Below are positions 25,505 through 63,747 of a stretch of DNA of 64,000 nucleotides, in pieces. The stretch spans positions 1,288,534 through 1,352,533 of the forward strand of contig BQUP01000002.1 in NCBI GenBank assembly GCA_022835595.1, read 5' to 3'. This stretch comes from Cystobasidium ongulense. Its lineage: Eukaryota > Basidiomycota > Cystobasidiomycetes > Cystobasidiales > Cystobasidiaceae. Under the pieces are notes generated by a model. It made no database searches, was not told the DNA's origin, and saw only the letters and a program-made list of their open reading frames with translations. Position 1 is the first letter of the stretch; each line of letters starts with the position of its first letter. Made by a program: the position numbers and the translations under genes.

Positions 25505-28500
25505 ATGGACGACCTTTTGCACTTTGTTCGCCATGAAGTGGCCATGGACGGGGATGATGGTGAGTGTCGAGGCCTCTCTAGAACAAAGCAGGCAGCACGC
25601 TGCGGTGCACACCAGCTATCCGCACCTTTCCACTCCACTCCTTACGCACCACCCACCGAGCTGCGTTATGCAAGCCGCCAGTCACGCGTCTCCTTGAATC
25701 CCGCGTAAACAAGCAGCTGGATCTCGTGCAGAAAAACAGCCCAGCGTGAGAGACGCTGTTCGAGGCGGCATCAAGACACTTTATTGCGACCTTACCACTT
25801 TACCTCTCTGCCACATATGCCTGTCAAAGAGCTCTTGCTGCTTCAGTCTGCTTCCCACTGACTCTTTGTGCAATCTCGCAGGCACTCCAATTGATCGACT
25901 GGATTCCTTCCTGCAGACCTTCTATGCAAGAAATGTGGACCAGACAGGCAGCTCAGCTGGTATAAAGTCGCAAAACATAGACGACTCGTTCAAAAATTTC
26001 GTGTGGAAGCAGCTCGCCTCCCTTCCTGAACTGAAAGTCGCTTTTCTGCGCAAGCTTGACAATAACACTTCGGCACCTACACCTGATCCAAGCGCAGATA
26101 CAGGTACTCCAGCACTGCCACCCGCTTCAGAAGACAATACGGCCCCCGTCGCTTCAGGCAGCAATACTCTCTTAGACGACGACGGCAATCCTATCGACCA
26201 AGGGGCTTTCAATCTTAAAAACAAAGCAAAGATCAAAGCAGCTCGTAAAGATGATCAAACGAGACATAGAGATGCTCGTCTTACCGGTGATCAATACGAG
26301 TTTGTCGAAATTGCGCAAGAGGAGATACAAACTTTCACCAGAGAAGCATTGCTGGAGAAATACGGTACTACTTTAAGAATAGCAGCGGATCCGGAGACGT
26401 GCTATATTGCTATCACCGGTTCACCGGAGAGGGTGAGCAGACCTCCGATGCCTATAGGTGCCACCATGCTGATGCAAGTGCTCTACTACCGTTCGCCTAC
26501 TACAGTTCGGCAAACTCACACCTTTAGCATATCAAGTCCTCCAAGCCATTGCAAGAGGCAGAGAAAATGGTAAAACAGTAGTAGATCTAGGGAAAGAGTT
26601 TGCTCATGACCAGAAATCTCTTTTTCACTTTGTCAAATCTCTTTGTGAACTAAACTTGATGTGAGTGCACTCTTTTTCTTTTCTATTTCATTAAAGACAG
26701 TATTTGGCACCATAGCTAAAATTTTCGATGTCGACGCTTTTCAATCGTACAATCGTACAATAGTATCAAGATGAAAGTTTTGGATGCTCGCTCACAAACT
26801 TCAAGATGCATACATCGCCATTACCTCGAAACATCGCGACACTGGGCGACATGGATGGCGAAAGATCCGAATGAAGGCGCTACTATGAAAGGGGAAGATG
26901 ATGAAGATGATATGGGAAAGAGCACACCTCTGACAATCATGACAGTTGCACACATCAACAGCAATGAACCTTTTGTCAGATCAAGAATCATCAACGCGTT
27001 AAAAAACGCACCTGAAAAGTTAATACCCCATGTAGATCTCGTCTTTGCTATCGGTTTCCATGCGAGACCTGGTAGAGAAGCTAGAAGAAGAATCAACCGT
27101 ATCGTAACTACTATGGAAAGGCAGGGCTTGGTAGAGAAAGTCGGAGTCGCTAGACAAGGCGCGAAAGGCTTATTGAGCTGTTTGAAATTATGTCAGACTC
27201 CTCATTTGGAAGGCGAAGGGTCCGAAGCGCAGCAAGTGATACGAAGCGAAGAAGATGAGATCGAACAGAGACCCAATATCCTAGCCACTCTTCCTGTAGA
27301 ACGGCAAGTTGTAGATCTGTTAGTATCAGCTCGACATCAAGGCCTTACTATCCGAGAGTTACAAGCTGGCTTAGGAGATGTTGGGATTAGAAGTTTGGAA
27401 ACTCTTTTGACAAGGATGGAAAAAACACTCGAACCTCCACACTTGTGTGATTATCGTATACAAAGCGTCTTCGAAACTCATGGTCGAGAGAAAAGATTAC
27501 GATACTTTACGACCGCAGGATATCACGAGAGGTGCAGACAAGATGGTCTATTTGAACTCGCGAATCAATCCGATTTCACACATCCTGAACTCGCAGGCGG
27601 CTTTTCAATCCTTGATAAATCAGATTTCTATGCAACACCACAAGAATTCGCTACGATTGCTAGCAATATGCAAACGAACGCCAGTGGTAAACTGAAAGCA
27701 AAATCAAAAGCTACTGGAAAAGGAAAATTGAAAACTCCAAAAGATCCAAATCAACCTCCTGTCAAGAAAGGTAGACCTAAGGGAAGCACTAAAGCCGCAA
27801 AAGTTTCTGCTACTACAAATGGGGATACAACAACAACCTTACCTGATAATACTCCACTGGTAGAGAAACCTAAGAAAGTAAAGCAGAAGAAGCCAAAGAT
27901 TGAAGGAGAGGACCAAGCGCCGAAGAAGAAGGGAAGGCCAAAGAAAGTACAACTAGAAGGCGAACAATCTCAATCACAACCTCCAGCTGGATCTAGCACG
28001 CCTCATGCAGATGGCGAGGTTCCACCGATGATGGAAGGATCCTCCGAGACGCCAGCGGCAGAGCCTCCCAAGAAAAAGTATAAACCGAGGAAAAGTAAAG
28101 CCGACGCGGAGACAATCCCTGATGTTACTGTGGAGGGATCTTCTGCAGCTCTTGAGCGCACCGGGATAGAAGCAGGCGAAGTTGCGTCGCTGGCGGAAGG
28201 ATCGTCCGAGACGCTGGTAGCACAACCTCCCAAGAAGAAATACAAACCGAGGAAAAGCAAAGCCGTCGTGGATACAGTCCCTCCTGTGCCAGTGGAAGGA
28301 TCTGCTACACTTGTTGAGCTCGTCGCAGCAGAAGAAGGCGATCAAGTCATGGCAGATCAGAGTACTCTTGATCCTGATCTCATCAGTGGCGGTCCGCACG
28401 TTGACGCAGCACAGGTTGGCGCAGAGGTTGGTGGCATTGCGACTACAGCACCTTCACCAGCACAGTCAAAGAAGAGACCCAGGGCGTCGAAAGTGCACGA

Positions 28501-31500
28501 AGGCACGCCTAGCGAGAATGGTACCGACAAATCATCGAACAAGTACAAGGCAGAGCTCGATGAAAATGGAAAACCTATCAAAGGTAGACCTCGCAAATAT
28601 CCACCTGGTACAACATCCCAACAACGAAGGGTAATACTGGAGCAACGGAGAGCAGCTGGTCTTGAGCCTCCGTCTAAGAAACAGAAACGAAAATCCAATG
28701 GGGCAGACGGGGAGATTAGATCGGTGCCTCCTTCGAATGTCGAACCGGCGCCAGAAGCAGAAAGGCAAGACTCGCAGCAGCCTCAACAAGATCTGACGGA
28801 AGCTAGTCTTAACATTGCCCAGGATAGTGAAATTGCTATGGAGAATGCTCAAGGCGGAGGTGTCCTCACCTTGTCTGCTGTCGAACCGTCCACCTCAGGT
28901 CGTAATCCCTCCTTCGAATCTCTACCCCCTCTTCCGCCCGCTTTCATGCAGGCAGAGCCACCATCAGAAATCATGGGAACTCCCAATGATACACCCTCTG
29001 CACTCGAAGTCTCGGATGCAGTACCATTTGCGCCTGAAACCTTGGCAACAACAATTCTTGAGCCGAATTCAGCACCAACATACTCCAAAACCAACTCAGA
29101 GGCGGCTGAACCTCCAGTTGCCTCAATATTAGCACCGACACCAAAGAAGCGCGGACGCCCAAGAAAGAACCCACTCCCAGAAGCTGTCACTGTTCTCGAG
29201 CCTGTTGTGTCTGCAGAGAAACAACACCAGGATGAGGCAGTTAGCACACCCGCCATACAAGAGACTATCGCTGTAGCTGTCAGCGTCGACGATGGGCAGC
29301 GTCGTTCAAAGCGCCAGAAAACTGGGGAAGCTGTTTCATCGACGCCTGTAGCCAGACTCAGACGAGGTCGTTCGAGTAAGGGCGGGCCGGCTGATGCCCT
29401 TGTAAAGGTAGAAGAAAGTGCGCTGCCTACCATGGACGTTGAGATGCAAGCTACACCTCTGAACGATGAGCAACAGATGGGGATGATAGCTGCAGAAACT
29501 CCAGAGGAAGAAACTGCAAACACGGCAATCCTCGCTGCTGAGCCTATGTCGGTCGACGAGGCGAATGTACCTGATATGGTTACAGAGCCGAACCCGCCAG
29601 CGAGAGACACCTCTGTAACCATGGCAAACCCGTCGATGCTATCCGAACAGCAGCACGAAGCTCCGATGCTACGCGAAAAGCCAGTTTCGGAGCAGAAAAC
29701 CCGCCAGCCCCGCAAGTCGGTCAAGCAAGCGAAAGAGGCTATACCTGACACTGTCGCTGAGGCAGCATCAGAGACACATTATATGACCACGCAGCAGCCA
29801 GAAGCTATCCTCGACCTCCCCGTCCCAAGCATGGAGACCGAAGCAGCACCTCAAGACAACGCGCAGGCACCCGGAACGGATACTTCTTATACTGATCTAG
29901 AAAACCACCAGTCGCAAGTCATAATAGTACCTGATATGCAAGAAGACTCTTCAGGAACAGTTGAAGTAACTGTGCAATCAGAACACGCGTCAGAAACTGT
30001 AGATGTACCTATGCAGCTACCAGCAATGCCGGAACCTCTGCCAGGCTCCGGCAGTATGCACACTGAAGATGGTCCTGTCGACATCGCGCCCAATGTGATA
30101 GGCAAGCCTGCGCAGAGCGATATCAAGCAGGACAAAGGTATGCATCCTCACCAGTGCTACAATGCTAGAGGGCAGGCACTGACCGTTGAAAGAATGTGTT
30201 TTGACAGGCCCGGAAAGAAGAAACCACTCAATGAAATTGCACGAGAACGAATACATCGCAACATTGAACGATGCGGGCGGCATCGCCGAAGAAGGTATCC
30301 CCCTCAACAAGCTTTGGCAAGAGTATTTGCAGCGCAAAGACCCCAGTAAAGGACTGCCGCGACCTTTAGACCGGCGAACAATGAAGGGCGTCTCGAGCAG
30401 TCTTGAGAAACGTGGTCTCGTGAAGCGGTCCATATTACAATTCCAGAATTCTGATGGCAAAATGGTTCAGCGACACATTATGTACCTCTCCAGCATCACG
30501 CTGCAAAGCCCGCAAATGCGAGAATTTGCTATCAGCATGCAGGAAAAGATGGATGGCATGATCGCTGGGCCAAAGAACTGGCTGTTAGGCAGAAAGACAA
30601 TAGATAAAACGTCAGAAATGGCTATTGCCCCTAGGCGAGGTCGACGACCGATGGGTGAGATACCTACGGAACCCCGACCATTCTTCCTGAAAAACTGGAG
30701 GATTGTCGCCCAATACTTTGGCTGGCAGTACGGCTTTCTCGCGCGAGCAAGAACGCTTCACGAATTCCTCGTTAGCAGCATCACCGACGAGAACGACTCC
30801 TCCTTCATCATTTCCTCGGCGCCTGCTATTCGCATCTTCTCCGCACCCTTCGTCCTTCTCGACACGCCCTTGTCGGTATTTATACGTATAGCTGCCGTGT
30901 CCGAGTACAGCGAAGACCTTGAAAACTTCCTGAAACAGAATGACTCGCAGAACATAGCTATAAACCAGCTGCGCACAGAGCTTTCAGGCCTGTTTGGCAC
31001 AAAGAAAGCTAGAGGCTACAGCCGATTCTCCCAATTATTTGAGACTCTGATGATGCTGAAGCTGCTAGTGCCGCTTGAACAAGTAGACTACGAGAGTCCT
31101 ATCGTCGCGTATTCTGGTGCAGAGCGAGAACCCCGATACTTTGCGGCTAAGGAGGATCGAGCAGGAGCGACATACTGGATGCTGCCGAGCCACGCGCCGC
31201 TTTATGATATGCAGGAAAAGAAAGCGAGCGAGCAGAGGCTACTCGGACAATTACCGATTTTCACACTTGAACAAGCTTCACACTATTGGGATACCGTTCA
31301 AGCGCTCACCTTCGGAGTCGCCAACCCCGCCGACCTTCCTGCAGCGACTGTGAAGTATCCCCCAACGATGAATGCACCTCAATCATTCATCTACTCAGCT
31401 CGCAGCTCTTGGCATTGGCGGTCGCAGTACCTGCTTCTTTCGCAGCAGAAGACATACCTCCGACGCATCCTGGATGAAGCATCTAGCAAGGACATCCTGC

Positions 31501-46592: not shown

Positions 46593-48689
46593 ATGGCATC
46601 ACAACCACAACCAGCCCAACATGGCCTCCCTCGTGCAAAACTCGCCATCCTCGTATCGTCCCTGCTCGTCTCTGGCGTGTGCAACTCGATGCTGAACAAG
46701 TGGGTGGTCATTCATCCATTCACAGGCTGTAGAGCGTATCTGATAGGATAGTACCGCAGATACCAAGACATGCAAGTCGTAGACACTACCACAGGCAAGA
46801 AGTACGAACAGCCCGTGTTCCAGACGCTGTGAGTGACTTCATCATCATCAATGGCAACGAGTCAACATCCGGTCAAGACACAGGCTGACATGCAATCATA
46901 ACATCAACAGCACAATGTTCGTGGGAGAGAGTGAGTGGACACATAGGTCGTTTATTCTCCTTCTTAGACACGCTTGCTGACGAGTTGAATCTACTCCATC
47001 CGCCTCCTCGTCCTGCTGCTGCCCTCGTCGTGCCTACTTGCCCTCCGCCGGCTAATGTACCATGGACTCCCCTACTGCGCACTATGTCAACTAACGGCAT
47101 CAATCACTCATCGTGACGACTCTGAATAGCCTTCTGTAAGTCTCGCTGTCCTCCTTGTCCTGCTCAGGGAGTATCGACTGACCAGCATTGCATGTCACCA
47201 CAACGTCAGGCCTCGTCGCTTTCCAGATCGTAAAGTACCGCTCAAGAGTAATAGAACGTCGGAAAGCAATCAAACACAAATATAGCAAGATTCCTACTAT
47301 AATAGACGATTCTGGAGTCGTCTTGAACACCGAATCAAGCATTACCATGCGGACGGTAGCGAACGATGATGATGACGATGAAGAGGATGGAGAGGCGAGC
47401 GGTGTACAGAGACATGGAGATGGCAATGATGGGAATATGCACGGCGTACATGCTCATAAAGCTGTCGTTGGACCCGATGAACTCCTCCCTGGCGAACAGG
47501 AACCAATGCCAAAGAATGGAGAGAAGATGGTCGGATTCACACAGGCTTTGATGTGGTTACCTGCGATATTCGACGTGAGTCAAGTCGCTCTATCCTGTAT
47601 TGTTATCTTACATCATGCAAGAATTGCTGACGGGTTCGCTTTGTTTGTGCATGACAGATCTGCGGTACAACGCTTATGAACGTCGGACTTTTATGGGTCC
47701 CAGTCAGCGTCTATCAAATGCTAAGAGGCTCATTAGTCCTCTTTGTCGGATTATTCAGCGTTATCTTCCTCAACCGACGTCTTCCACTCGAACAATGGCT
47801 ATCACTCTTTGTCGTCATGCTTGGTATCGCAATTGTGGGATTGTCAAATGCTATTTCTACACCCGCATCGACACCAGGTGGTGAGGTCGGGCATAAAGAG
47901 GATACTACGAAAGCCATGCTCGGAGCGGCGTTGGTACTCTTTGCTCAGATCTTTACTGCAAGTCAGTTTGTTATTGAAGAAAAGATCATGACTAGGTATT
48001 CTTTGGCGCCTTTGAAGGCAGTAGGTCTCGAAGGTATCTTCGGTCTCGTCACAACAAGTGTTGGAATGCCAATATTATTCTTCCTGTTCGGACGAAGTAT
48101 GACAAGCCATCAAGGCAATAAAGGTTATTTCGATGTACCAAACGGTTTCCAAGAAACGATTTCAGATCCAAAGATTTATGTTACATCTATTTTTATAGCT
48201 TGTTCAATCGCTTTCTTTAATTTTGCTGGTTTAGCTGTTACTAAGAATATTTCGGCTACTGCTAGATCTTTATTAGATTGTTGTAGAACAGTGGGTATTT
48301 GGATTTGCTCTCTACTGTTGGGTTGGGAAGCTTTTAAAGGATTACAAGTACTTGGATTCGGTCTTTTAGTTTATGGTACTTTGTGAGTTTTTTTCCCACC
48401 TCTCTCACACTTACTCAACAAAGAATCAAATCCGCACATCATTGCTTACTCTCTCTAATAACTTCGTAACAGATGCTTCAATGAAGTTATTTCCCTCCCT
48501 TCTTTTCGCAAGACTCGTGACAATACTGCATTTCAATCATCGTCAGCCAAGGTACACTCCGCTCACAACTCAAGATATACAGATGCAATCGACTCGGACG
48601 ACGAGGGAGATGTCGTAGTGTCTGCCCATCGCGATAAACGGCATAACTCGACGGAACGGAGTCCTCTATTGGCCGATGCTAGTCGGTGA
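46593..48689 (+). CDS. SLC35F6-like drug/metabolite-superfamily transporter
   Basis: Seven exons: 46593-46699, 46760-46828, 46911-46930, 47130-47135 (6 nt), 47186-47574, 47658-48382 and 48473-48689. They give 510 residues. The match to SLC35F6 is strong along the chain: LAILVSSLLVSGVCNSMLNK (TM1), QTLTMFVGE, LPAIFDICGTTLMNVGLLWV, SVYQMLRGSLVLFVGLFSVI, LFAQIFTASQFVIEEKIM, KAVGLEGIFGLV, IAFFNFAGLAVTKNISATAR and WICSLLLGWEAFKGLQVLGF. About ten membrane helices are visible; the human protein is lysosomal/mitochondrial. A His/Asp/Glu-rich loop (about residues 105-185) is inserted after TM3. The cytosolic tail SDDEGDVVVSAHRDKRHNS ends ERSPLLADASR, with a dileucine-type sorting motif. A diverged copy of this tail lies at 52247-53354. 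Confidence 0.9.
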
Positions 48690-48696
48690 TTGTCTG

Positions 48697-48736
48697 TCTG
48701 GATAACAAAGCCAATGTCTGGATAACAAAGCCAAAG
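48697..48736. repeat. Tandem duplication of a 20-bp unit
   Basis: The unit TGTCTGGATAACAAAGCCAA occurs twice in immediate succession, a few bases after the transporter stop codon. It is probably a simple replication-slippage duplication in the 3' UTR. Confidence 0.8.
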
Positions 48737-52238: not shown

Positions 52239-52327
52239 ACAAGCAGAATATACAGATGTAATCCACTCGGATGACGAGGGCGGTGTTGTAGTATCTGCTG
52301 GTCGTGACAAACGATACAGCTCGACGG

Positions 52328-52342
52328 AATGCATGGAGCCCT
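52328..52342. repeat. 15-bp direct repeat flanking the element (left)
   Basis: AATGCATGGAGCCCT. The same 15 bases recur at 53318-53332 on the other side of the element, within sequence that is contiguous in the intact transporter tail. It therefore reads as a target-site duplication. Confidence 0.75.
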
Positions 52343-52343
52343 G

Positions 52344-53319
52344 TTACGGGGCTAGGGACCCGTTCTTGTTCCTCCTCCAGGGCAATTTTGGCAAAATGTT
52401 CCATGTTTAGAGTTTGAAAAGAACGCAGCAGCACGGCTTGATCGCATTTCGAACAAAAGAGTGGCGTTGACAGCTCACTTTACCGTACGTAAGGGTTCTC
52501 AATCACAGTAGCCTTACGACCCGAAGCTTTCAGTGTACACTGACCCGTTCTTTTTGACGAAGTTTTTGAATGAAGGAAGGGATGAAGAATACAGATTGTG
52601 GCAAAAGGCACATCCAAAGTCAGTCTCGAATGTTCAGGCAGTAGATGTGTGATAGGTGTTCACCAACTGCAATTACGCTACTTCGCAAATGTATTAGACA
52701 ATTGCAATTGGCACATCTGGATGATAAGTACAGAGATCAGAAACTCTCAGTGGACGTGATCGGCAAGCATGCTAAGCGAAAACCAGTCTGTATCAGCCCC
52801 ATGGCTGGTAGTGGTAAGTCGGCTGGAGCACATAATACTCGGAGGCANNNNNNNNNNCTTATCCCTCCTGCTATGTACAGTAGCGATGACCTTGAGAAGC
52901 AGGAAGCCTTCTTTGTTACCAGTGTGCGAAGCCACTCAGCTTCTCTTCTTACCGCTATCAACTTAATTACGATCCGCCCGCCGCGCAGCGGCGGGCGGTC
53001 CACGCAGTACTAACGTTAACGAGTCCGACGCATGGAGTCGGTAAAGTCCTATGGATGTGACCTGTCGTCATAGCTCGCTTCCGCAAGTTTTGTGTCTGTA
53101 ACCCCACAAATGTTTGTAAATGTGTATGCGAGCAAGTTCCACTGGGCGTTGAGAGATTGACAATGTGCACTCGTCGCCACCCATCGCGCATTGTAGCGGA
53201 AAGCGTAGAGGTCGGAAAGGGGAAGCTGGAGGCAATCCAACTCATAGCGCCTGCCAGAACAAGTACAGCTTTATGCTCCCTAGCCCCGTATCTAGCTGCT
53301 CTCGCAGCTGTTCCTGTAA
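52344..53319 (+). mobile_element. Repetitive ~1 kb element, copy 1 (class uncertain, no coding capacity)
   Basis: The copy begins TTACGGGGCTAGGGACCCG and ends GCTGTTCCTGTAA, so the termini are TTAC..GTAA. A 14-bp motif TACGGGGCTAGGGA at the left end recurs inverted 30 bases inside the right end. It is bounded by a 15-bp direct repeat. It contains ten Ns (52848-52857) and a perfect 11-bp GC hairpin. No transposase or other protein is visible. A near-identical inverted copy is at 60640-61692. It could be a non-autonomous DNA element (MITE-like) or a solitary terminal repeat; a 15-bp duplication is unusual for either. Confidence 0.7.
52974..52998. repeat. Perfect 11-bp GC hairpin inside copy 1
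   Basis: The stem CCGCCCGCCGC (52974-52984) is followed by the loop GCA and the exact complement GCGGCGGGCGG (52988-52998). The same hairpin is kept in copy 2 (60958-60980). It stands out from the average composition around it. Confidence 0.85.
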
Positions 53320-53332
53320 TGCATGGAGCCCT
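53318..53332. repeat. 15-bp direct repeat flanking the element (right)
   Basis: AATGCATGGAGCCCT, identical to 52328-52342. After it, the transporter-tail relic resumes (ATTAGCCGATGCTGC). Confidence 0.75.
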
Positions 53333-53451
53333 ATTAGCCGATGCTGCTCCATGATCGCGACACTCGGCATCAGTCTCGCCTTCACGCTGACTCCGTATCA
53401 TAGCAGGCGAGTCCATCTGACGTGAATCCAGTGCAGTCATCAACAGTTGCA

Positions 53452-55345
53452 ATGCGACGTGCGCTAGTGATAGGCGCAGGCTCGAGGTGTGTCTGTAATC
53501 GCCGGATGAGATGGGGCTATTCATGAAAAGGCCACGGCTGCGAGCTCCTGTAGCTAAACCTCGCCGAATGTCCTTCGTGCAGTGGTCTCACTGCTGTTCG
53601 AGAGCTGCTGCGCTGTGGCTTCGATGTCACAGCGCTTGAAGGTATGCTGTATGCTCGACTTGATGTCACACAGAGGCAAGATGCTGAGATGCTGCTTGAT
53701 GGCGGATAACAGCAAGAACCCAAGTCGGAGGGGCATGGATATACTCGAGCAAGACACCTGGCGCATGCAGGATAGCCTACGACAAGCACGGTCGTCCATT
53801 CCCAGTGCACGATGAAGAGCAGTCCTCCCATAACAGTGACAGCAACGCGCAGGCAAATGGCGCCACCACCTCGTCAAGCAGCAGCAACACAAGCAGCGTC
53901 CTGGATCCAAGTCCAATGTACAGACTACGCACGAACATTCCTGCTGATCTCATGGCCTACAGAGGCTATCCATTCGCGAATATTAGTGGTCCATTCCCGT
54001 GAGTAATTGCGTGGTTTCACGCTTCTGACTAATGTGCTTAACATTCTCTGATACACACAACAGTCGCGACGATGAAGTCCTCAGATATCTAGAAGGCTAT
54101 TCTAAAGAAATACTTTCGTATATCCGCTTTGATACCCTGGTCGATAGAATACGCAAGGATCCCAACGACAAGAACGCTCGGTGGCGAGTCACATCAACGG
54201 ACGTTACAACTCAAGAGGAAACTACAGAAGAATATGAAGCCATATGTGACTGCTCTGGACACTATACTCGTCCGTACATACCTTTCGTCCGCAACCTGTG
54301 GAAGTATAAGCGGCCGATACTTCACGCCAAGTGGTATCGCAAGCCCGATGTCTTTGCCAACCAGGTAAATTCGCATTCACCGCATGCGTCCTCTGTCACT
54401 TGACCAATGTATCTCAAATCACACCTACAGAACGTACTTGTTATTGGCAACAGCGCTTCCGGTTACGACATCGGGCGAGAGATTGCATTATACCTAAAGA
54501 AGCATTCGCCGGAGAATTCGGTATATCAGTCTATTCGACATCCTTTCGAAATTGGCATAGATCCATCAGAAGGGCCAGCATGGTCAAGCCATCTTAAGAC
54601 AGTACCTGGGCTAGATTACGCGACGGATGATGAGATTGTCCTGATCGATGGAACCCGCTTGCAAGTCGACACAGTCATTTTCGCTACTGGCTATCTATAC
54701 AGCTTTCCGCATTGTTCAGAGAAGGACTATCCATTCTCTGAGCATCCTCTCGTAAAGACTCCACCGCTTCCGGCCAATGCAGAATCGCCAGAAGCACTAT
54801 CGAAAACAGCAGACTGTCCAGAGGGTGGTTTGCAAGTGCACAATCTGGATGCCGACTATCAGACTTTCTACTATCCGGATCCCACACTCGTATTTCTGTG
54901 TCTCAATAAGAACGTCATACCATGTGGGTGCTGCCTCACTGCATATGATATGTGTCTCAGGGCTGTCTGACACAGTGCTTTTCTCTACATCAGTCCCTCT
55001 TGCACAAGCGCAAGCTCACGCAGTGGCGAAGCGCTGGGCAGGATTGGACTTCCCTCTGCGCGCGCCCAAAGAGACGGAAACTGAGAATCCGATATACCAC
55101 AAGTATGGCTTTCCGAAAGTAAGACTTGTCCTTTTCGTTTTTCTCGGCCTTCCACGTTCTAACGTCCTTCTGTGCTCTCGTAGGAATTCGACGTGGCGGA
55201 TGCGCTTCTGCAAGCAGCAGGTGAAGGAGAGTCAAACGGGAAGGAAGAAATCCTCGATGATGGTACGTTCCCTGCGACATCACAGTGGAGAAGAGATAAG
55301 AGGCCTACGTGTAAAGCATTCAGGAAGCAGGAACTCGGATATTAG
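53452..55345 (+). CDS. Flavin-containing monooxygenase-like enzyme
   Basis: Seven exons, 53452-53486, 53583-53641, 53713-53998, 54064-54364, 54431-54923, 54994-55118 and 55184-55345, giving 486 residues. The FAD-binding GxGxxG is at the N terminus (RRALVIGAGSSGLTAVREL), then QVGGAWIYSS, the FMO-typical Arg/Trp position, and AICDCSGHYTRPYIPFV. The NADPH-binding site is NVLVIGNSASGYDIGREIAL. The FATGY-type motif VIFATGYLYSFP near residue 305 completes the class B monooxygenase/FMO pattern. Such enzymes oxidise soft nucleophiles (N, S) or perform Baeyer-Villiger oxidation; the substrate is unknown. All exon phases agree, so the gene looks intact. A Ser/Asn-rich insertion (about residues 55-80) is unusual. 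It lies directly downstream of the repeat element and upstream of a permease on the same strand. Confidence 0.9.
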
Positions 55346-55754
55346 ACGGCAACGTACATGTTTCATATCTGGCGGTGTGACATATGCATAGCAAGGCAGC
55401 TAAGGTTAGTTACCGGTACGGTTCAGCATATACTGTACCCAATAAGCTTTCGTGTTAGCCTGGAACTGGTTTTGATTTTCACCGGTTACTCGGTACATTT
55501 ATTTTGGGGCTAAGGAGCGCGCTATCGGTTTTCAGTTTGATAAGGATGAGCAAACTGAGGCTACCTATCAAGATAAGATACACGGCTGCGGGAAGGGGCA
55601 CAGGGCGCAGGATGAGTGGGCTTGAAGCTGTTCAACGATTCGCGTACACTGGTTGTTCTCTTTCCAACGAAGTCTACTGTGCCGCATCTCGCAACCTTTC
55701 CTCGAGTTGAGCGCGATAAAGCTCACCCAATTTGAGAAACCCGATCAAGGCGTC
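55346..55754. other. Intergenic, monooxygenase to second permease
   Basis: 409 bp, presumably the 3' UTR of the monooxygenase and the permease promoter. Runs such as TTACCGGTACGGTTCAG and ACCGGTTACTCGGTAC near 55411-55495 share ACCGGT/GGTAC words but form no clear element. Confidence 0.45.
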
Positions 55755-58096
55755 ATGAAGACCACGGAAAGCGAGAAAGACCAGGCAACGAGTGCCGACA
55801 GGGCCGTCGAGAAGAATCTAGGCGACGATGGGCTTGCTAGAATTATCACTCAAGGTGAGTGAGAGCATTCGACACTTCGACCGATGGAATGTGGCGGAAA
55901 GTGTAATTAATTGCTGAACCGAGGTTACATGGCCATGCCCTAGCAGACGCAGCTGGCGAATTTGGGCACCCATTCACGATTAGCGATGAAGACAATAAGA
56001 GGGTGTTGCGGAAGATCGACTGGTTGCTTATGCCGTTGATGAGCGTTGCTGTTTTATTGCAATTTCTCGACAAGACCTCGCTCAATTACGCGAATCTGCT
56101 GTGAGTAGGCAAACGGACATATGGATATACACGTCTGATAGCTGACTATCCATATCCTGTGACATCCTACTTTGTCAGTGGAGTCCAGAGTGATTTGGGA
56201 CTGCACGGCCAACAGTACTCGTGGCTTGGCAGTATATTCTATTTCGGGTACGTAAAGCAGATTATGCGCATCAATCTTCGTTAACGCGATATCTTGGTTG
56301 TCAAAGCTATCTTGCAGCCTCGCCAATTCACGGGTTTTTTCTTCAAAAGTGAGATAAACCGACAGCAAGCTATTTTCCGTAATTACCCTCGAAGCTAACA
56401 GTCAAATTTCCGGATCCGTCTAGACTACATCTATCCCGCTACACTGCAAGCGTCGTCATACTCTGGGGCGCTGTTCTAGCACTTCATGCCGCCGCCTTCA
56501 ACTATGCTTCTCTCGTGGCATGCCGTCTCTTCCTTGGAATCCTAGAAGCAGGTGAATAGGCGATAACAATAAATGGTAGCGAACGAAGTGAGCTAACTGG
56601 TTGACTTATGACAGGTCTTACACCAGCCTTCATCCTCCTCACTGGACGCTTCTACAGAAGCCAAGAGCAGGTCGTCCGTACTTCGCTCTGGTTTTCGATG
56701 AACGGTTGGGCTCAAATACTCGGAGGTCTCATCGCGTATGGTCTGCTCCAGCGCCAGTCGACTGGTTCCTCGCTTGAGCGCTGGCAGGAACTCTTCCTTA
56801 TCTTGGGATGTATCACAATGTTCTTTGGGGTCCTTCTATTCTTCTTTATGCCCGCTAGCCCGGCCTCTACGAAGTATTTAACTGAAGAGGAGACAAAGAT
56901 CGCTGTAGAGCGCATTAGAGAAAATAAGACTGGCATCAACGATACGCGATTCAAGCCTTATCAGCTCCTGGAAGCTTTGAAGGATCCTCGCTTGTATCTG
57001 TTCGGTTTCGGTGTAATGAGGTAAGATGACGAGGGGAGAGCTTCACCGACGTTCCCCGACGTACGAGGCACTAATCTGTATTCTCATCGCTGCAGTGCCA
57101 ACATCGCCAACGGAGGAGTGACCAACTTCGTGAGTTTGGTTCTAGATCCTAGGCAGTGGATTGGAGGGAATTCGTGCAACTGCAGATCGCTGACATGTGT
57201 TTATTGTAAACAGGGTTCGGCCATCGTTGGTGCCTTCGGCTACGGCAAAAGTCAGACAGCTCTCATTGGCATGAGTACAGGGGCCAGCGAAATTGTGGCC
57301 ATATTTATCGGTGTGGTGATTGCTCGTCTGACCAAAACAAGGGTCATCCCGGGAGTGTTTTCTTTCTTGGTTGCTATCATTGGAGGTGTCTTGTGAGTCT
57401 GCTTCACTTCTAAGGGGGACTTGAGCGAGCCATTGACGCTGCAAGTGTTCCTGCAGAATGATTGCACTTCCTGCGCAAAACAAAGCAGGTCGAATGACAG
57501 GCTTTGCAATTGTGAGTCTTAGCATACTTCGACACGTCTACCTTTACTGATGGTGCGCAATCTAGGTCTACTTCTACCCTGTTGCATCGCCTTTCTACTA
57601 CTCCGTGAGAATCTTTGTCGCCAACTTCCTTGAAAGTATGCTGACCGTGCGACATTAGTGGTTGAGCTCTTGCATAGGTGGCACATCCAAGAAGATTGTC
57701 TTCAACGTGTGGCTTCAGCTATTTTACTGTGCAGGTGAGTGCAGAAAGTTCGCCAGAACAGTACCATTTAGAGGACTGACATTTGTTGCCCCGTCCCACT
57801 AAATTGCCGTCCGCCGACTCTTTCCTACGTCTGGAAACGCGTTTATGCTCAAAGGCAACGCTATCGGACCGCAGACTTATCGCGCTCAAGATGCACCTGA
57901 TTATGTACCGGCAAAGATCACTCTCATAGCAATGTTTGGTGTGAGTTCGCTTTGTTTGATTGGAATCAGCTTGTATCACCTTTTAGAGAACCGCACAAGA
58001 GATAAGAAGGGTGAATTCGGAGAGGGAGAACCAGAGGACGTTGCTTTTAGAGATTGGACAGACAAAGAAATAAGAAGTTTCCGTTATCCATATTAG
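55755..58096 (+). CDS. MFS permease, allantoate (Dal5-like) family, second copy
   Basis: Twelve exons: 55755-55854, 55947-56100, 56179-56247, 56307-56348, 56424-56551, 56615-57020, 57096-57129, 57214-57392, 57457-57511, 57566-57635, 57678-57734, 57855-58096. They give 511 residues. Marks: RKIDWLLMPLMSVAVLLQFL, QQYSWLGSIFYFGYLAASPI, CRLFLGILEAGLTPAFILLT, GRFYRSQEQVVRTSLWFSMN, FFFMPASPASTKYLTEEE, GGTSKK..FNVWLQLFYCAG, NAIGPQTYRAQDAPDYVPAK and the C-terminal RDWTDKEIRSFRYPY. It is the same transporter group (TC 2.A.1.14) as the gene at 49786, and the C-terminal D.TD..IRSFRY is shared, but the two differ widely, so the duplication is old. The substrate may relate to the adjacent monooxygenase; this is inference. 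Confidence 0.92.
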
Positions 58097-58157
58097 ACTC
58101 ATAACATGTATTGAAGAAAATTCGGTATCCTATTATTGGCGAATAAAAGTACAACAA

Positions 58158-59962
58158 TCAGTGATCCGAGCTTGTGAAAGTCTCTTGTTTAACTGTGATT
58201 CCCGAGAATATAATAGTAGTATCCGCTTCGTGCGAGGTTGGTCTCTCGCTCGCATGCTTGAGATAGGCAGGAACGAGGGGCGGTCGAATGCGTACAGGCG
58301 ATTTGACCAGAGTCAAGGATACGTCCGAATGTGTCGCACTTAGGTCTTCCTTGTCGTCAATCTTTTGCATGTCCGAAGCGTTTGTATCGTCGGTCATTGG
58401 GAAGGTAATCTTGGTGCTGCCATATAATGCGTGCTTGGAAGGCTTCCTGAAAACGAAGTTTGCGGAATCTAGGTAGCAGAGTCGTCAGCTGCATCCACAC
58501 GTCTGGGACGAGAAACGGAAAAGGCTCACTGGTAACCTGTTCTTCTCGTTTAGGATGAACACTCAAGAGGTGCTGAGATGACACCGTTTCATCAGCTATA
58601 CTCGACTGCTGAACATTTTTGTAGTTATCGGACGTACCCTGGAAAAGGTGTATAACAGTGCGTTGGCAAGCCCTCCCAATGAGAAAATACAGCCGCAGGC
58701 AGCAAGCGCTTGGGGCGATCCCGGCTTTCCAGCTAGGGCCATCACTCGATAGACCGACAAGGGCATGATGACGCTCAAATTGACGAGAGGATAGATGAGC
58801 ATGATCATACTCGTTCTGTCGAGCATGTAAGTATCGCCAGACTTCTTACGACCCAAAGGCGTAGCTTTGCCATTGGATGGCTGGTCTTCGGAAGAAATGT
58901 ATTCGTCTACTTGCGAAAGATCACTCATATGCATTCCGCCATTTTCCCTTTCCAGATCCTTCAAAAACCTTTGCTGTGGTAGCCATCGAAAACGGATAAC
59001 CTATTGGGAGTTGTATTTCAGCTTGGGTTTGCGAGTGTCGTTCTCGGTCTTATTTCTCGTACTTACCAGGAAGATAGCCAAATATGCAGCGATCTGTCCA
59101 GCAGCTGACAAGAAAAGCTGACAGACAGGCGTGTCAAAGGGTTAGCTGTCACTACTGGCGGAATCAAACTAATGAAGAAGTGGACGCACGAAGAAGTAAT
59201 GCAGCCAGAGGCGCATTTCGCTGTACGAGTTAGAGATCCAGCACCAATTTCCTGCTTCGCCGTAGAAAGCTCCCCCTGACTTGTTTGCAATCGCCAATGG
59301 ACCAATGAAAGTAGCGAAGGCAACAAATATCCAAGAGCTGGCAGCGGCAATGTAGAGTAATTTATCGCTTGGTTTCCTGGAAGTTGTGAGGAGTACGGCA
59401 GTGTAGAGAGCGATAAAGAAGCTAAAGACAGCTGAAGCTACATCGCCAGACTGTATTGCCAGTGCTTGGAAGAGACATAGATTGGCGTTGTGCTCTATGC
59501 TTCCGTGAGAAGCCCAAACCCAAGTGAGGCCAAAGCCAAGTGCTTGAGTTGAATCTGCAGCGAGGAGGTTCAAAAATATAAAGCCTGCGGGTGTTCGTAG
59601 AAATCGGATGCCAGTACTGGGTGGAGTATTCATAGTTGATACCTTGCGATATCGGTAAATGGTATAAGCGATAAAGGCAGCTAGGGAAAGCGTGGCAGAC
59701 AGAGAAAGCTACCAAGGACATTGGTCAGTGCCGCTGCCCAGGTGTAGATTAAGAGAAAATTACACACGGTTGCGCATGTAGCTACCGCCTACAGAAGGGC
59801 AGAAAGAGAAGGGTAAGTTCGTCGGCATCCGGTACATATCATTAGATGCACGGAGTGGGAAGCATACTTTGGCACCCAGGAGACTATTATCACAATGCGA
59901 ATATATTAGCTACTGCATCGTCGATGAGGGGGACATACATGTCCTTACTAGAATGTTGCCAT
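58158..59962 (-). CDS. 7TM receptor, Git3/cAMP-receptor-like GPCR (copy 1)
   Basis: Eight exons: 59949-59962, 59868-59883, 59768-59788, 59190-59708, 59067-59117, 58638-59000, 58530-58608 and 58158-58468. They give 457 residues. Seven hydrophobic segments are visible, from LSLSATLSLAAFIAYTIY through AGFIFLNLLAADSTQALGF, DVASAVFSFFIALYTAVL, LYIAAASSWIFVAFATFIGP, SAAGQIAAYLAIFLVIR, MLIYPLVNLSVIMPLSVYR and GCIFSLGGLANALLYTFSR. The pattern GNWCWIS in the second outer loop and the seven-helix layout fit the fungal glucose/nutrient-sensing Git3 and Dictyostelium cAR families. The long third inner loop is hydrophilic. The first three exons are 14, 16 and 21 nt. A paralogue at 61861-63747 has the same structure. 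The ligand is unknown. Confidence 0.85.
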
Positions 59963-60639
59963 GGTGCTTAGTCGAAACTTTGTATGATAGTCCTTGCTAA
60001 GCTCTGTATTAGCCGGGCGATGGGAGAGAAGAGAGGTAACGCAGTGCTAGGTCTACTCTTGCAGCGACTGGCTATCTTGACCAGCACCTTCTAGCGCGAT
60101 AGACTGTCATCATTAGCTTGACGTATCCCGTAAGCTTCAGACGGACAAGCTGTCTATCGAGTGGGACAGATGTCTGAATGTAAGCCTAGCTGCGCAGCGG
60201 ATAATTGTCAGAAAGGTCCAGAGATCTTGAGGAGTGAGTATACGTTCTGCAGGGATGCTACCAGCCCTGGTACTGAACATATTGCCGAGACCATGCAGTC
60301 AAATCCTTGCCTGGGCAGTCAGACTCGCAGGCGTGTACCACGCCGATGTGCAGCGCTTCAACTGCTGACGTGGTCGTGCCTAGACTGGCGTTCAGTACGT
60401 ATCCAGACACCAGGTCGTCTACAGCTGTCGAAGCCAGTGCCAGCAAGGTCTGATTGACATTTGACGCGAGCTGGCTAGACCAGACAGGCCATGCGAGACC
60501 ATGCAGCAGCTATGCAGCAGGTTTGAGGAAGGTGTAGACTATCATGGAGGGGTATTCGTATGCATGTACAGTGCTGGTGGACAAGAGCAAAGCCGAAGGT
60601 CGTCCAATAATCACTGATCGAGGAGCAGAACGATATCGA
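59963..60639. other. Intergenic between receptor copy 1 and the inverted element
   Basis: 677 bp. It includes the receptor promoter and, on the minus strand, an open stretch (60258-60446) whose translation I do not recognise. The left flank of the element shows no direct repeat matching its right flank. Confidence 0.4.
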
Positions 60640-61692
60640 TTACAGGAACAGCTGCGAGAGCAGCTAGATACGGGGCTAGGGAGCATAAAGCTGTACTTGT
60701 TCTGGCAGGCGCTGTGAGTTATGGGTTGCCTCCAGCTTCCTCTTTCCGACCTCTACGCTTTCCGCTGCAATGCGCGATGGGTGGCGACGAGTGCACATTG
60801 TCAATCTCTCAACGCCCAGTGGGACTTGCTGGCATACACCTGTATCAATATTTGTGGGGTCACAGACACAAAACTTGCGGAAGCGAGCTACCACGCCAGG
60901 TCACGTCCATAGGACTTTACCGACTCCATGCGTCGGACTCGTCAGTGCTGCGTGGGTCGCCCGCCGCTGCGCGGCGGGCGATTGTGATTAGGTTGATAGC
61001 GGTAAGAAAAGAAGGGTGAGTGGCCTCGTATGCTGGTAACAGGGAAGGCTTCCTGCTTCTCAACGACCTCGCTACATAGCAAGAAGAATAAGGACAACAG
61101 ACATGCACGTGCCGATCACAGCTAGTATATCCCCTTGAATTCTTATTGGGATGAACACAGCATTGTCACATGCCTCCGAGTATTCTGTGCTCCAGCACAC
61201 CTACCACGACCAACTATGGAGCTGATACAGACTGGTTTTCGCTTAGCATGCTTGCCGATCACGTCCGCTGAGAGGATCTGATCTCTGTACTTATCATCCT
61301 GATGTGGCCGATTGCAGGCGTCTAATACATCTGCGAAGTAGCGTAATTGCAGTTGGTGAACACATATCACACATCTACTGCCTGAACATTCGAGACTGAC
61401 TTTGCATGTGCCCTTTGCCACAATCTGCATCCTTCATGCCTTCAACTTCATTCAAGAACCTGGTCCAAATGAACGGGTTAGTGCGCGTACACAGTGACAC
61501 TGAAAGCTTCGGGTCGTAAGGGTACTGTGATTGATGAGAACCCTTACGTACGGTAAAGTGAGCTGTCAACGCCACTCTTTTGTTCGAAATGCGATCAAGC
61601 CGTGCTGCTGCGTTCTTTTCAAACTCTAAACATGGAACATTTTGCCAAAATTGCCCTGGAGGAGGAACAAGAACGGGTCCCTAGCCCCGTAA
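60640..61692 (-). mobile_element. Repetitive ~1 kb element, copy 2, inverted
   Basis: Read on the minus strand it begins TTACGGGGCTAGGGACCCG and ends GCTGTTCCTGTAA, like copy 1, and most of its length matches closely, including the right-hand 150 bases. It is about 77 bp longer than copy 1, partly because copy 1 carries the assembly gap and lost segments. No matching target duplication is visible at its ends. With copy 1 it forms a long inverted repeat around 7.3 kb. Confidence 0.7.
60958..60980. repeat. GC hairpin inside copy 2
   Basis: The stem CGCCCGCCGC (60958-60967), loop TGC and exact complement GCGGCGGGCG (60971-60980). It is the counterpart of the hairpin in copy 1; the flanking pair present there is not retained. 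Confidence 0.85.
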
Positions 61693-61860: not shown

Positions 61861-63747
61861 TCATTTCTCTGACAAGGTCACTGTCTCCTGATCCACTTTG
61901 ACAAGAGTCATATCAGCGAACGGTCCTGTGTTCCTTGAGACTGGTCGGGATGGGTTCGTGAAGCTAGTCTTGTGACTGATTGAAGAAGCGCTTCGTTCTA
62001 GTTTCAAAGGCGGCAGTAGAGCGCTTGCCGGTTTCTCAATTCCAGAAGAAGATGTGCTCGAAGCGCTTGGGCTAAGTCTCAATTCTCGAAGCTTCTTTGC
62101 TGCCTCAGAGGTCTTATAAGGTGTAGGAGGATTGGTATCGACTTTCGTAATATCGCTGGCAGGTGAGCCGTACATGGGGGAATGGAACATATCAATCTTG
62201 AATGTTTGCACGTCGCCAATCGCTGAGAGTAAGTTGGGGAGACGTCAGCTGCTGCTCGGGTGATTCACGAAGGCTAGGAGGACTGACGGGTGATGCACGC
62301 ATCCTGATCAGTTCGCTTAGTCTGAAAGCTCAAGATCCGCTGGGAAAAAAGCGCTTGTCAGCATTTACACACACAGAACTAAGAGATAGGAAGACCTACT
62401 CTACTGAAGGAATACAAGACAGTATTTGCTAGTCCACCAAGTGCGAAAATGGAGCCACAAACAGCCAAAGCTTCTGGTGAACCGTGTTGACCAGCAAGAC
62501 CCAGTAATCGGAAGATAGAAAGAGGAAGTATGACAGTCAAGTTGACAAGTGGGTATAGTAGCATCAACAAGCTTGTCTTGTCCAACTTTCGCCGAAGAAC
62601 AGAAGAAGAAGTCGTTGGACGTGGTATAGTTTTGGAACTTGCACTTCGGCTTGGACTTGGCCTTTGGATACCGAAGGGACGAGGCGGACTTATAACAGTC
62701 TCATCTTTGTGCTCTACATCTCTCAACTTTGTCTTTTGGAAACTGGTGCCAAAGCGGATGATCTGTGATAATGCGAAAAGGTGTATCAAGGTCAGCAGCA
62801 ATCCAGAAGATAGAGGATATTGGAGGAGAGCACTCTTACAATGAAAATAGCTACATAGGAAGTGACTTGTGCAGCTGCAGATATGAAGATCTGGGAAAAG
62901 ATGCGGAAAATTAGCAAGAATAGTGGGGATTGCGCTAGGAGACAATGTGCAAACTTACGAAAAAGTAGTGGAGCCACAATCTCTGGTTTACGTAACTGTC
63001 GCCAATCCAGCACCAATTTCCAGCATCGGCGTAGAATTGTCCTTGTTCAGGCGTCGCAATTGCCAACGGACCTAAAGCAGTGATAACAGCTACGAATATC
63101 CAACCGCATATACAAGCAACTCTCAGGAAAGTTTCATTCGCTTTCTTTTCGATGGTGAGCATAGCGGCTGTATGAAGAGCGATATATAAGCTGAAAATGG
63201 CAGATGCCACATCACCAGCTTCAATTGCCAGTGCTTGAAAAGTGCATGTATGCATTGCCGGCTCTATACGCCCTTTTCCTGCCCATACCCAGGACAAACC
63301 GAATCCTACAGCTTGAGTAAAGTCGGCGGCTAGGAGACTGACGAACAGATAGCCCGCTTGGGAGCGGAGAAAGCGAATGCCTGTGCTTGCTGGAGTTAAA
63401 GACGTGTCGATGCCGCGATAGCGTAGAGCGAGGACAGCAATGTAGATGCCCAGAGACATGGTGGACAGGAATGAAAGCTGAAGGGTGAGAGCGAAAGGAC
63501 AGTCAGTGTGCAAGTCGCTGGGTAGTACACGTCCGCTTGTTACGTCTACCCACACTTGCGCATGCTGCAACGGCCTGTAGTGAAGTGGGAAGAGAGTGGT
63601 ATATGCGTTGTTCGTCAGTCCTTGCCGGTCTGGAATACTTGCATCCATGCTCACGACAGCGCCAAAGGATCTGCAAGCGAGAAGGGGAGTCAACAGGAGT
63701 TCAGACGTATGTGTTGTATAGTCAGTCGCTCACTCAAAAGTCGTCAT
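61861..63747 (-). CDS. 7TM receptor, Git3/cAMP-receptor-like GPCR (copy 2)
   Basis: Eight exons: 63734-63747, 63655-63670, 63554-63574, 62959-63477, 62840-62890, 62400-62762, 62288-62339 and 61861-62222. They give 465 residues. Six of the eight exons have exactly the lengths found in copy 1 (14, 16, 21, 519, 51, 363 nt). Helices include LSTMSLGIYIAVLALRY, AGYLFVSLLAADFTQAVGF, GDVASAIFSLYIALHTAAML, VACICGWIFVAVITALGPL, SAAAQVTSYVAIFIVIIRF, LMLLYPLVNLTVILPLSIFR and GSIFALGGLANTVLYSFSR. GNWCWIGDSYVNQRLWLHYF matches the second outer loop of copy 1. The C-terminal tail is Ser/Pro-rich and divergent, as expected for a regulatory tail. It is probably a nutrient- or cAMP-type sensor acting through a G protein; the ligand is unknown. 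Confidence 0.85.

Follow-up and report, generated by a model that had tools for sequence, protein, structure and literature searches.

Introduction

The rolling-circle transposons closest to the repeat treated here are the Helitron2 elements described in PMC3627910. In the passages of that paper that set out their structure, the ends carry asymmetric terminal inverted repeats (ATIRs) of 8–15 bp. The 5′ ATIR lies 0–2 bp from an end that has a 5′ T and falls within a 5′ hairpin, and the 3′ ATIR lies ∼20–30 bp from the other end, above a second hairpin. The same passages report that the Chlamydomonas elements CRe-1/2/3 share their 5′ 200 bp (∼90%) and 3′ 50 bp (∼70%) with verified Helitrons, that CRe copies with intact 5′ ends have no target-site duplication (TSD), and that TSDs of ∼7–19 bp occur at many other copies, after T-rich tetranucleotides. 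Such Helitrons in fungi were called a large uncharacterised reservoir in 2016, in a section of PMC5148889.

Here we analyze a repeat in a 64-kb stretch of contig BQUP01000002.1 (the window; all coordinates are positions within that stretch). An earlier note on this DNA had described two near-identical elements of ∼1 kb in opposite orientation and stated that no family name fits them. We find that their ends satisfy the published structural description of Helitron2, so that a repeat left nameless is now placed. With a probability of roughly 0.9, the two copies inserted independently and belong to a family of non-autonomous rolling-circle transposons of Helitron2-like type, which would be mobilised in trans by a RepHel protein from another locus in a genome that is probably fungal. 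We base this assignment on paired ATIRs, 5′ and 3′ hairpins, near-invariant ends, the lack of a recognised domain, sharp boundaries and, for the left copy, a paralogous unoccupied site. The element is thus a further case of an already known kind, and there is no evidence for a new kind of system.

The two copies and their termini

The copies are separated by an inner stretch of 7,320 bp (53320–60639) and are delimited as follows.

52345–53319, plus strand: left copy of the non-autonomous Helitron2-like element, from alignment to the right copy, with which identity ends there; boundaries ±1–2 bp, the T at 52344 and that at 53320 being possibly target bases
60640–61691, minus strand: right copy of the Helitron2-like element, from alignment to the left copy

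Within the window, blastn pairs 52344–52847 with 61692–61171 (90.6% over 522 columns) and 52858–53320 with 61092–60639 (88.8% over 466 columns), in both cases on opposite strands. In a full alignment of the two copies 887 columns are identical, 68 differ and 101 contain gaps, which bears out the claim of near-identity at 92.9% of 955 compared columns and a spacing of 7.3 kb; one stretch of 158 bases is fully identical.

Read from 5′ to 3′, each copy consists of T(T)ACGGGGCTAGGGA, ∼0.9–1.0 kb of interior sequence, TCCCTAGCCCCGTA, TCT, a hairpin AGCTGC-TCTC-GCAGCT and a tail GTTCCTGTAA. The ends TTACGGGGCTAGGGA and GCTGTTCCTGTAA and the hairpin, which had been reported as shared, are indeed present in both copies. 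TCCCTAGCCCCGTA is an exact inverted copy of TACGGGGCTAGGGA, the opening 14 bases. This 14-bp motif had been seen inverted just inside the right end, where it does occur, but it is not a property of the right copy only, as it recurs in the same way inside the 3′ end of the left copy. Because the 5′ member sits at the extreme 5′ end and the 3′ member stops 29 nt short of the 3′ end, the inverted repeat is asymmetric.

52345–52358, plus strand: 5′ ATIR TACGGGGCTAGGGA of the left copy (14-bp inverted repeat)
52346–52363, plus strand: 5′ hairpin of the left copy, ACGGG-loop 8-CCCGT, in which ATIR bases pair with adjacent downstream bases (fold)
53277–53290, plus strand: 3′ ATIR TCCCTAGCCCCGTA of the left copy, 29 nt from the 3′ end (14-bp inverted repeat)
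53294–53309, plus strand: 3′ hairpin of the left copy, AGCTGC-TCTC-GCAGCT, followed by the 10-nt tail GTTCCTGTAA (fold)
61678–61691, minus strand: 5′ ATIR of the right copy (14-bp inverted repeat)
61673–61690, minus strand: 5′ hairpin of the right copy (pattern match)
60669–60682, minus strand: 3′ ATIR of the right copy (14-bp inverted repeat)
60650–60665, minus strand: 3′ hairpin of the right copy (fold and pattern)

Set against the Helitron2 description, the 5′ ATIR is 14 bp long and 0–1 nt from the end in both copies, the 5′ hairpin makes use of it (ACGGG/CCCGT, loop 8), the 3′ ATIR lies 29 nt from the end, and the 3′ hairpin has a 6-bp stem and a loop of 4 and is found 10 nt from the end. 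The 5′ terminal T is present, as TACGG or TTACGG. In the left copy the 5′ hairpin folds with z = −2.7 (2 of 200 shuffles are equally stable) and the 3′ hairpin with z = −4.0 (1 of 200). A canonical Helitron1, with 5′-TC, CTRR-3′, insertion between A and T and no 5′ hairpin, does not agree with copies that have 5′-TA, 3′-TGTAA and a 5′ hairpin. TTAC is a feature of Starship elements, which we also considered; here the 3′ end has GTAA, an inverse and not a direct repeat.

The same terminal bases could be read as a cut-and-paste element with terminal inverted repeats (TIRs), a Tc1/mariner-like miniature inverted-repeat transposable element (MITE) that duplicates a TA target, TA-CGGGGCTAGGGA...TCCCTAGCCCCG-TA. 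The 14-bp inverted repeat is indeed readable as 12-bp TIRs with TA on both sides in both copies. However, past the 5′ repeat only one T follows, whereas beyond the 3′ repeat 29 identical bases including a hairpin continue in both copies, at unrelated sites. Homology therefore does not end at symmetric TIRs flanked by TA, and a MITE would have to be nested on two occasions at one identical position within another, unknown repeat. We regard this reading as very improbable.

Copy-to-copy identity breaks off within 1–2 bases of TTACGGGG and CCTGTAA, at both ends, and the flanks of the two copies have no mutual homology. This bears on the idea of a segmental inverted duplication that happens to contain the two sequences. 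Only two copies are seen in the window, and nearby permease and receptor paralogues show that local duplication has occurred, but similarity that stops at transposon-like termini on both ends of both copies, with nothing shared in the flanks, makes such a duplication exceedingly improbable.

Layout control and conservation of the ends

To set the terminal layout against chance, inverted pairs of at least 12 bp spaced 0.3–3 kb apart were collected, reading both strands, in the window and in 60 Markov-resampled windows as controls. The window holds 11 such pairs, or 22 when counted strand-wise. Both hairpins accompany 2 of the 22, and these are the two copies, each in its own orientation; their pairs are also the only ones of 14 bp. 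The controls averaged 18.4 strand-wise pairs and yielded 6 with both hairpins among ∼1,100 pairs (∼0.5%), a comparison in which the hairpin criteria were fixed after the element had been seen and the two copies are not independent. The terminal layout alone is thus suggestive, and what convinces is that it is placed exactly at the homology boundary.

The differences between the copies are unevenly distributed. The first 158 alignment columns contain no difference in 155 compared (3 are gap columns) and the last 82 contain one, so that the ends differ at 1 of 237 compared columns and the interior at 67 of 718 (∼9%; Fisher P = 9e-8, with end lengths picked from the data). With ends fixed at 60 and 100 columns, P is 2e-4 and 3e-5, respectively. 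The difference-free run that opens the alignment is 167 columns long, and none of 100,000 random placements of 68 differences over 955 columns matched it; a run of at least 167 columns at whatever place arose in 5 of 100,000. Where non-autonomous elements share one transposase that acts on their ends, the ends stay conserved while the interior drifts, and the two copies look as if nothing but the ends had been required to mobilise them in trans. Neither copy shows a clear sign of repeat-induced point mutation by dinucleotide indices (TA/AT is 1.00 in the left copy, 0.82 in the right and 0.75 in the window; (CA+TG)/(AC+GT) is 1.15, 1.26 and 1.28, respectively).

Two further hairpins lie inside the element. 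One is GC-rich and very stable, stands mid-element and is intact in both copies despite its diverged surroundings.

52975–52997, plus strand: internal GC-rich hairpin of the left copy, 10-bp palindromic stem and 3-nt loop (z = −4.5)
60958–60980, minus strand: internal GC-rich hairpin of the right copy (z = −4.7)

The other is found ∼143 nt from the 5′ end (52488–52518 in the left copy, 61515–61548 in the right); the left copy has an outer stem of 7 bp, and the right copy one of 9 bp together with 3 additional loop bases.

Insertion sites

A short direct repeat abuts the left copy on both sides, and a related sequence in the window resembles the site without the element.

52330–52344, plus strand: 15-bp repeat TGCATGGAGCCCTGT, putative TSD, upstream member, abutting the 5′ end of the left copy (repeat search and flank test)
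53320–53334, plus strand: 15-bp repeat TGCATGGAGCCCTAT, downstream member with 1 mismatch, abutting the 3′ end of the left copy (repeat search and flank test)
48575–48689, plus strand: paralogous unoccupied site, uninterrupted at the position of the left insertion; probably the final exon of a transporter gene of the UAA/nucleotide-sugar type (splice not modelled)

The repeat measures 15 bp with 1 mismatch, or 19 bp with the shared TTA and AA included. Compared with one another, the two flanks of the left copy score 26, equalled in 0 of 2000 shuffles. The right copy's flanks score 9 (1119 of 2000 shuffles equal) and thus hold no flanking repeat. A T stands on both sides of both copies and possibly belongs to the element itself, in a sample of two insertions.

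The probable last exon of the transporter occurs a second time in diverged form. The left copy sits there, and its joined flanks align with 48575–48689 across the insertion point. At the expected place, 40 nt of its right flank match the exon with a score of 32 (0 of 2000 shuffles equal), over a short stretch of ∼33 columns that was evaluated at that position; when the whole right flank is aligned freely, another, gappy register scores best (35), and MAFFT did not align it. The diverged exon copy comprises 52248–52329 and 53320–53352 (frame ...SDDEGxVVVSAxRDKR..STE...) and lies ∼3.6 kb downstream of the transporter gene (∼47.2–48.7 kb), beyond a major facilitator superfamily (MFS) gene. It looks like a pseudogene fragment that the left element has divided. 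A perfect 20-bp tandem duplication (48695–48734) directly follows the stop codon in the transporter gene's probable final exon.

The flanks also speak to the earlier proposal that recombination between the repeats can invert the inner 7.3 kb, a flip that would make it a gene-switching cassette. Inverted repeats of ∼1 kb with a 158-base identical stretch could serve homologous recombination. A flip would, however, set the left 5′ flank against a foreign 3′ flank, and what is observed is its own: the two left flanks belong together, by the 15-bp repeat and by the paralogous exon, while the crossed pairs between the copies score 10 and 8 and are at chance level (1139 and 1849 of 2000 shuffles equal). 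The assembly therefore shows no net inversion. As this comparison draws on the left copy, the right having no flank pair, and on a scaffold join that runs through the left copy, it speaks against the assembled haplotype having flipped an odd number of times after the left insertion, and against nothing more. In addition, each copy bears transposon-like ends, and there is no recombinase among the Pfam-scanned host proteins, which cover part of the window's frames. We consider an invertible cassette to be highly improbable.

The other arrangement proposed in the earlier note, a composite mobile unit with the two copies as its ends and a monooxygenase, a permease and a receptor as cargo, fares no better. 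Accessory-type genes do lie between the copies, but the copies have opposed polarity, on opposite strands with 5′ ends outward and 3′ ends inward, whereas rolling-circle transposition would need a 5′ end and, further downstream, a 3′ end of like orientation; the pair would be unusable as one unit. The left insertion's own flanks match, as in a stand-alone insertion, and the outer flanks at 52344 and 61692 gave no shared repeat at E 1, in a search that would miss very short ones. Such a unit is hardly credible.

Coding content and searches

In agreement with a non-autonomous element, the earlier observation that there is no protein holds up, in that none is recognisable in the copies. We listed 40 frames of at least 40 codons for the two copies and scanned 35 against Pfam at E up to 1, the other 5 being mostly outside the copies; none of the 35 has a family at the curated cut-off. 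Sub-threshold matches occur in 4 frames (DUF3551, 0.0055; Cys_rich_KTR, 0.015 and 0.069; CoiA_N, 0.05; Zn_ribbon_NOB1, 0.1; SNCAIP_SNCA_bd, 0.15), and no Helitron protein family is among them. No coding remnant was recognised in the copies. Of the stop-free frames that fit entirely within the right copy, the longest runs to 101 codons; a stop interrupts it in the left copy, and the differences fall 5, 3 and 5 by codon position. A frame of 122 codons in the left copy crosses a run of N and was set aside as unreliable.

The exact 14-mer occurs in 45 stretches of viral contigs, which we read as chance matches: the CCCGT hairpin arm is adjacent in none of the 45, CTAGCCCCGTA lies within 4 kb downstream in none, and the 8-mer TAGCCCCG is nearby in one. 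Neither viral nor prokaryote contigs contain the 20-base 3′-end pattern (0 occurrences in each). The right copy has no blastn match among phage and plasmid records, and the window has none in Rfam at gathering scores.

Enclosed and neighboring genes

The window has a fungal look, with short introns and an FMO-like gene whose exons join into an open frame. Three genes lie between the copies.

53452–55262, plus strand: FMO-like flavin monooxygenase gene, hand-spliced into 7 exons, all open, 459 codons, 3′ end not modelled (PF00743, 2.8e-28)
55755–58096, plus strand: MFS permease gene, approximate limits, unspliced (PF07690, 4e-10 on one exon)
58600–59710, minus strand: Dicty_CAR-like receptor gene, approximate limits, unspliced (PF05462, 0.0013, below the curated cut-off)

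The simplest reading is that these genes belong to the host and lie between two insertions that occurred independently. The left copy ends 132 bp upstream of the monooxygenase gene, which is apparently intact and whose expression it might affect. The permease and the receptor each have a paralogue just outside the pair of copies: the receptor is 59% identical over 163 aa to its neighbor at 62938–63729, and the two MFS paralogues (∼49.9–51.4 kb and 55.8–58.1 kb) are 43% identical over 86 aa. The matching receptor segments, 59187–59675 and 62956–63444, are both on the minus strand, one on each side of the right element. Farther off, an adjacent direct repeat of ∼165 bp (28013–28341, 75% identical) lies in an open frame of 1209 codons (26720–30346) that has no Pfam match at 0.001.

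Discussion

We propose that the two copies arose by rolling-circle transposition driven from elsewhere. RepHel would act at the 5′ T beside the 5′ hairpin, copy one strand and halt at the 3′ end. There the 3′ ATIR would pair with the 5′ ATIR and thereby open the 5′ hairpin, a possibility raised in a passage of PMC3627910, and the new copy would insert at a T/T position.

Several observations weigh against a Helitron2-like assignment. TTTT is absent before the insertion at both sites, and a preference for a T target would look the same as an element that itself begins and ends in T. Although its 5′ end is intact, the left copy is flanked by a 15-bp repeat, and the bases upstream of it are CGGAA and not a T-rich tetranucleotide. 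The section of PMC3627910 on the short Helitron-1N1_CRe elements reports a TSD in just 1 of 200. In the HINE elements, as outlined in part of PMC4067079, the inverted repeats (subTIRs) are 2–4 nt from the 5′ end and 38–60 nt from the 3′ end, unlike the 0–1 and 29 nt seen here. Gene conversion could be another source of the invariance of the ends. The window contains no third copy by blastn, and no RepHel gene was found in the scanned host open reading frames, which amount to 16 of the window's 638 frames of at least 50 aa plus the spliced FMO. A literature search with the terminal strings, judged by title, brought up no transposon paper. Finally, the left copy is joined across an assembly gap, as indicated by 10 N at 52848–52857, the sole N run of the window, where 68 alignment columns of the right copy are absent from the left. 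An assembly break inside a repeat is also weak evidence that the repeat is multi-copy.

The repeat at the left site admits more than one history, in that the insertion either made the 15-bp duplication or landed exactly between its members. Because the left copy is untruncated and the upstream bases are not T-rich, a possible alternative to a target duplication is an older 15-bp tandem duplication, with unit TGCATGGAGCCCTRT, that was split at its T/T junction. It seems to us possible, though on balance doubtful, that full-length insertions of a fungal Helitron2 family can duplicate 15 bp of target and still have a flawless 5′ end. If so, target duplication would be decoupled from the 5′ truncation with which it is seen in the Chlamydomonas elements.

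The nearest relatives are Helitron-1N1_CRe and CRe-1/2/3 as portrayed in the parts of PMC3627910 devoted to them. The element described here is like them in the positions and length of its ATIRs, in a 5′ hairpin that includes the ATIR, in a 3′ hairpin below the 3′ ATIR, and in the 5′ T, the lack of RepHel, the conserved ends and, if the left repeat is a target duplication, the occasional TSDs of 7–19 bp. The 15-bp left repeat falls in that range and the right copy corresponds to their state without a TSD. Both are short, 657–673 bp in 1N1/1N2 and ∼1 kb here. In contrast to the Chlamydomonas insertions, no TTTT precedes the element and the 15-bp repeat occurs at a copy with an intact 5′ end. 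A further difference is that no Fanzor protein was found here.

Clean termini (5′ TACGGGGCTAGGGA with its hairpin; 3′ TCCCTAGCCCCGTA, hairpin and GTTCCTGTAA) provide probes for the family and its RepHel partner in fungal genomes. In the sections of PMC5148889 on FoHeli3-5 of Fusarium oxysporum, these elements likewise have an inverted repeat (13–16 bp), a 5′ hairpin and a 3′ end in TCCTGT, and our tail ...TTCCTGT(AA) resembles their CTCCTGT end. They differ in being 9–11 kb long, in starting with TGCCT and in having no 3′ hairpin, whereas the element here starts with TACGG, has a 3′ hairpin and adds AA after TCCTGT. For FoHeli1, circles with joined ends have been reported. We see no sign of the Helentron endonuclease partner that belongs to the HINE / DINE-1 comparison. 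HINE / DINE-1 elements, again following the relevant part of PMC4067079, share with ours a non-coding interior, subTIRs of 12–15 bp, a short palindrome near the 3′ end and possibly a T-rich or TT target, and they and the FoHeli elements are related variants.

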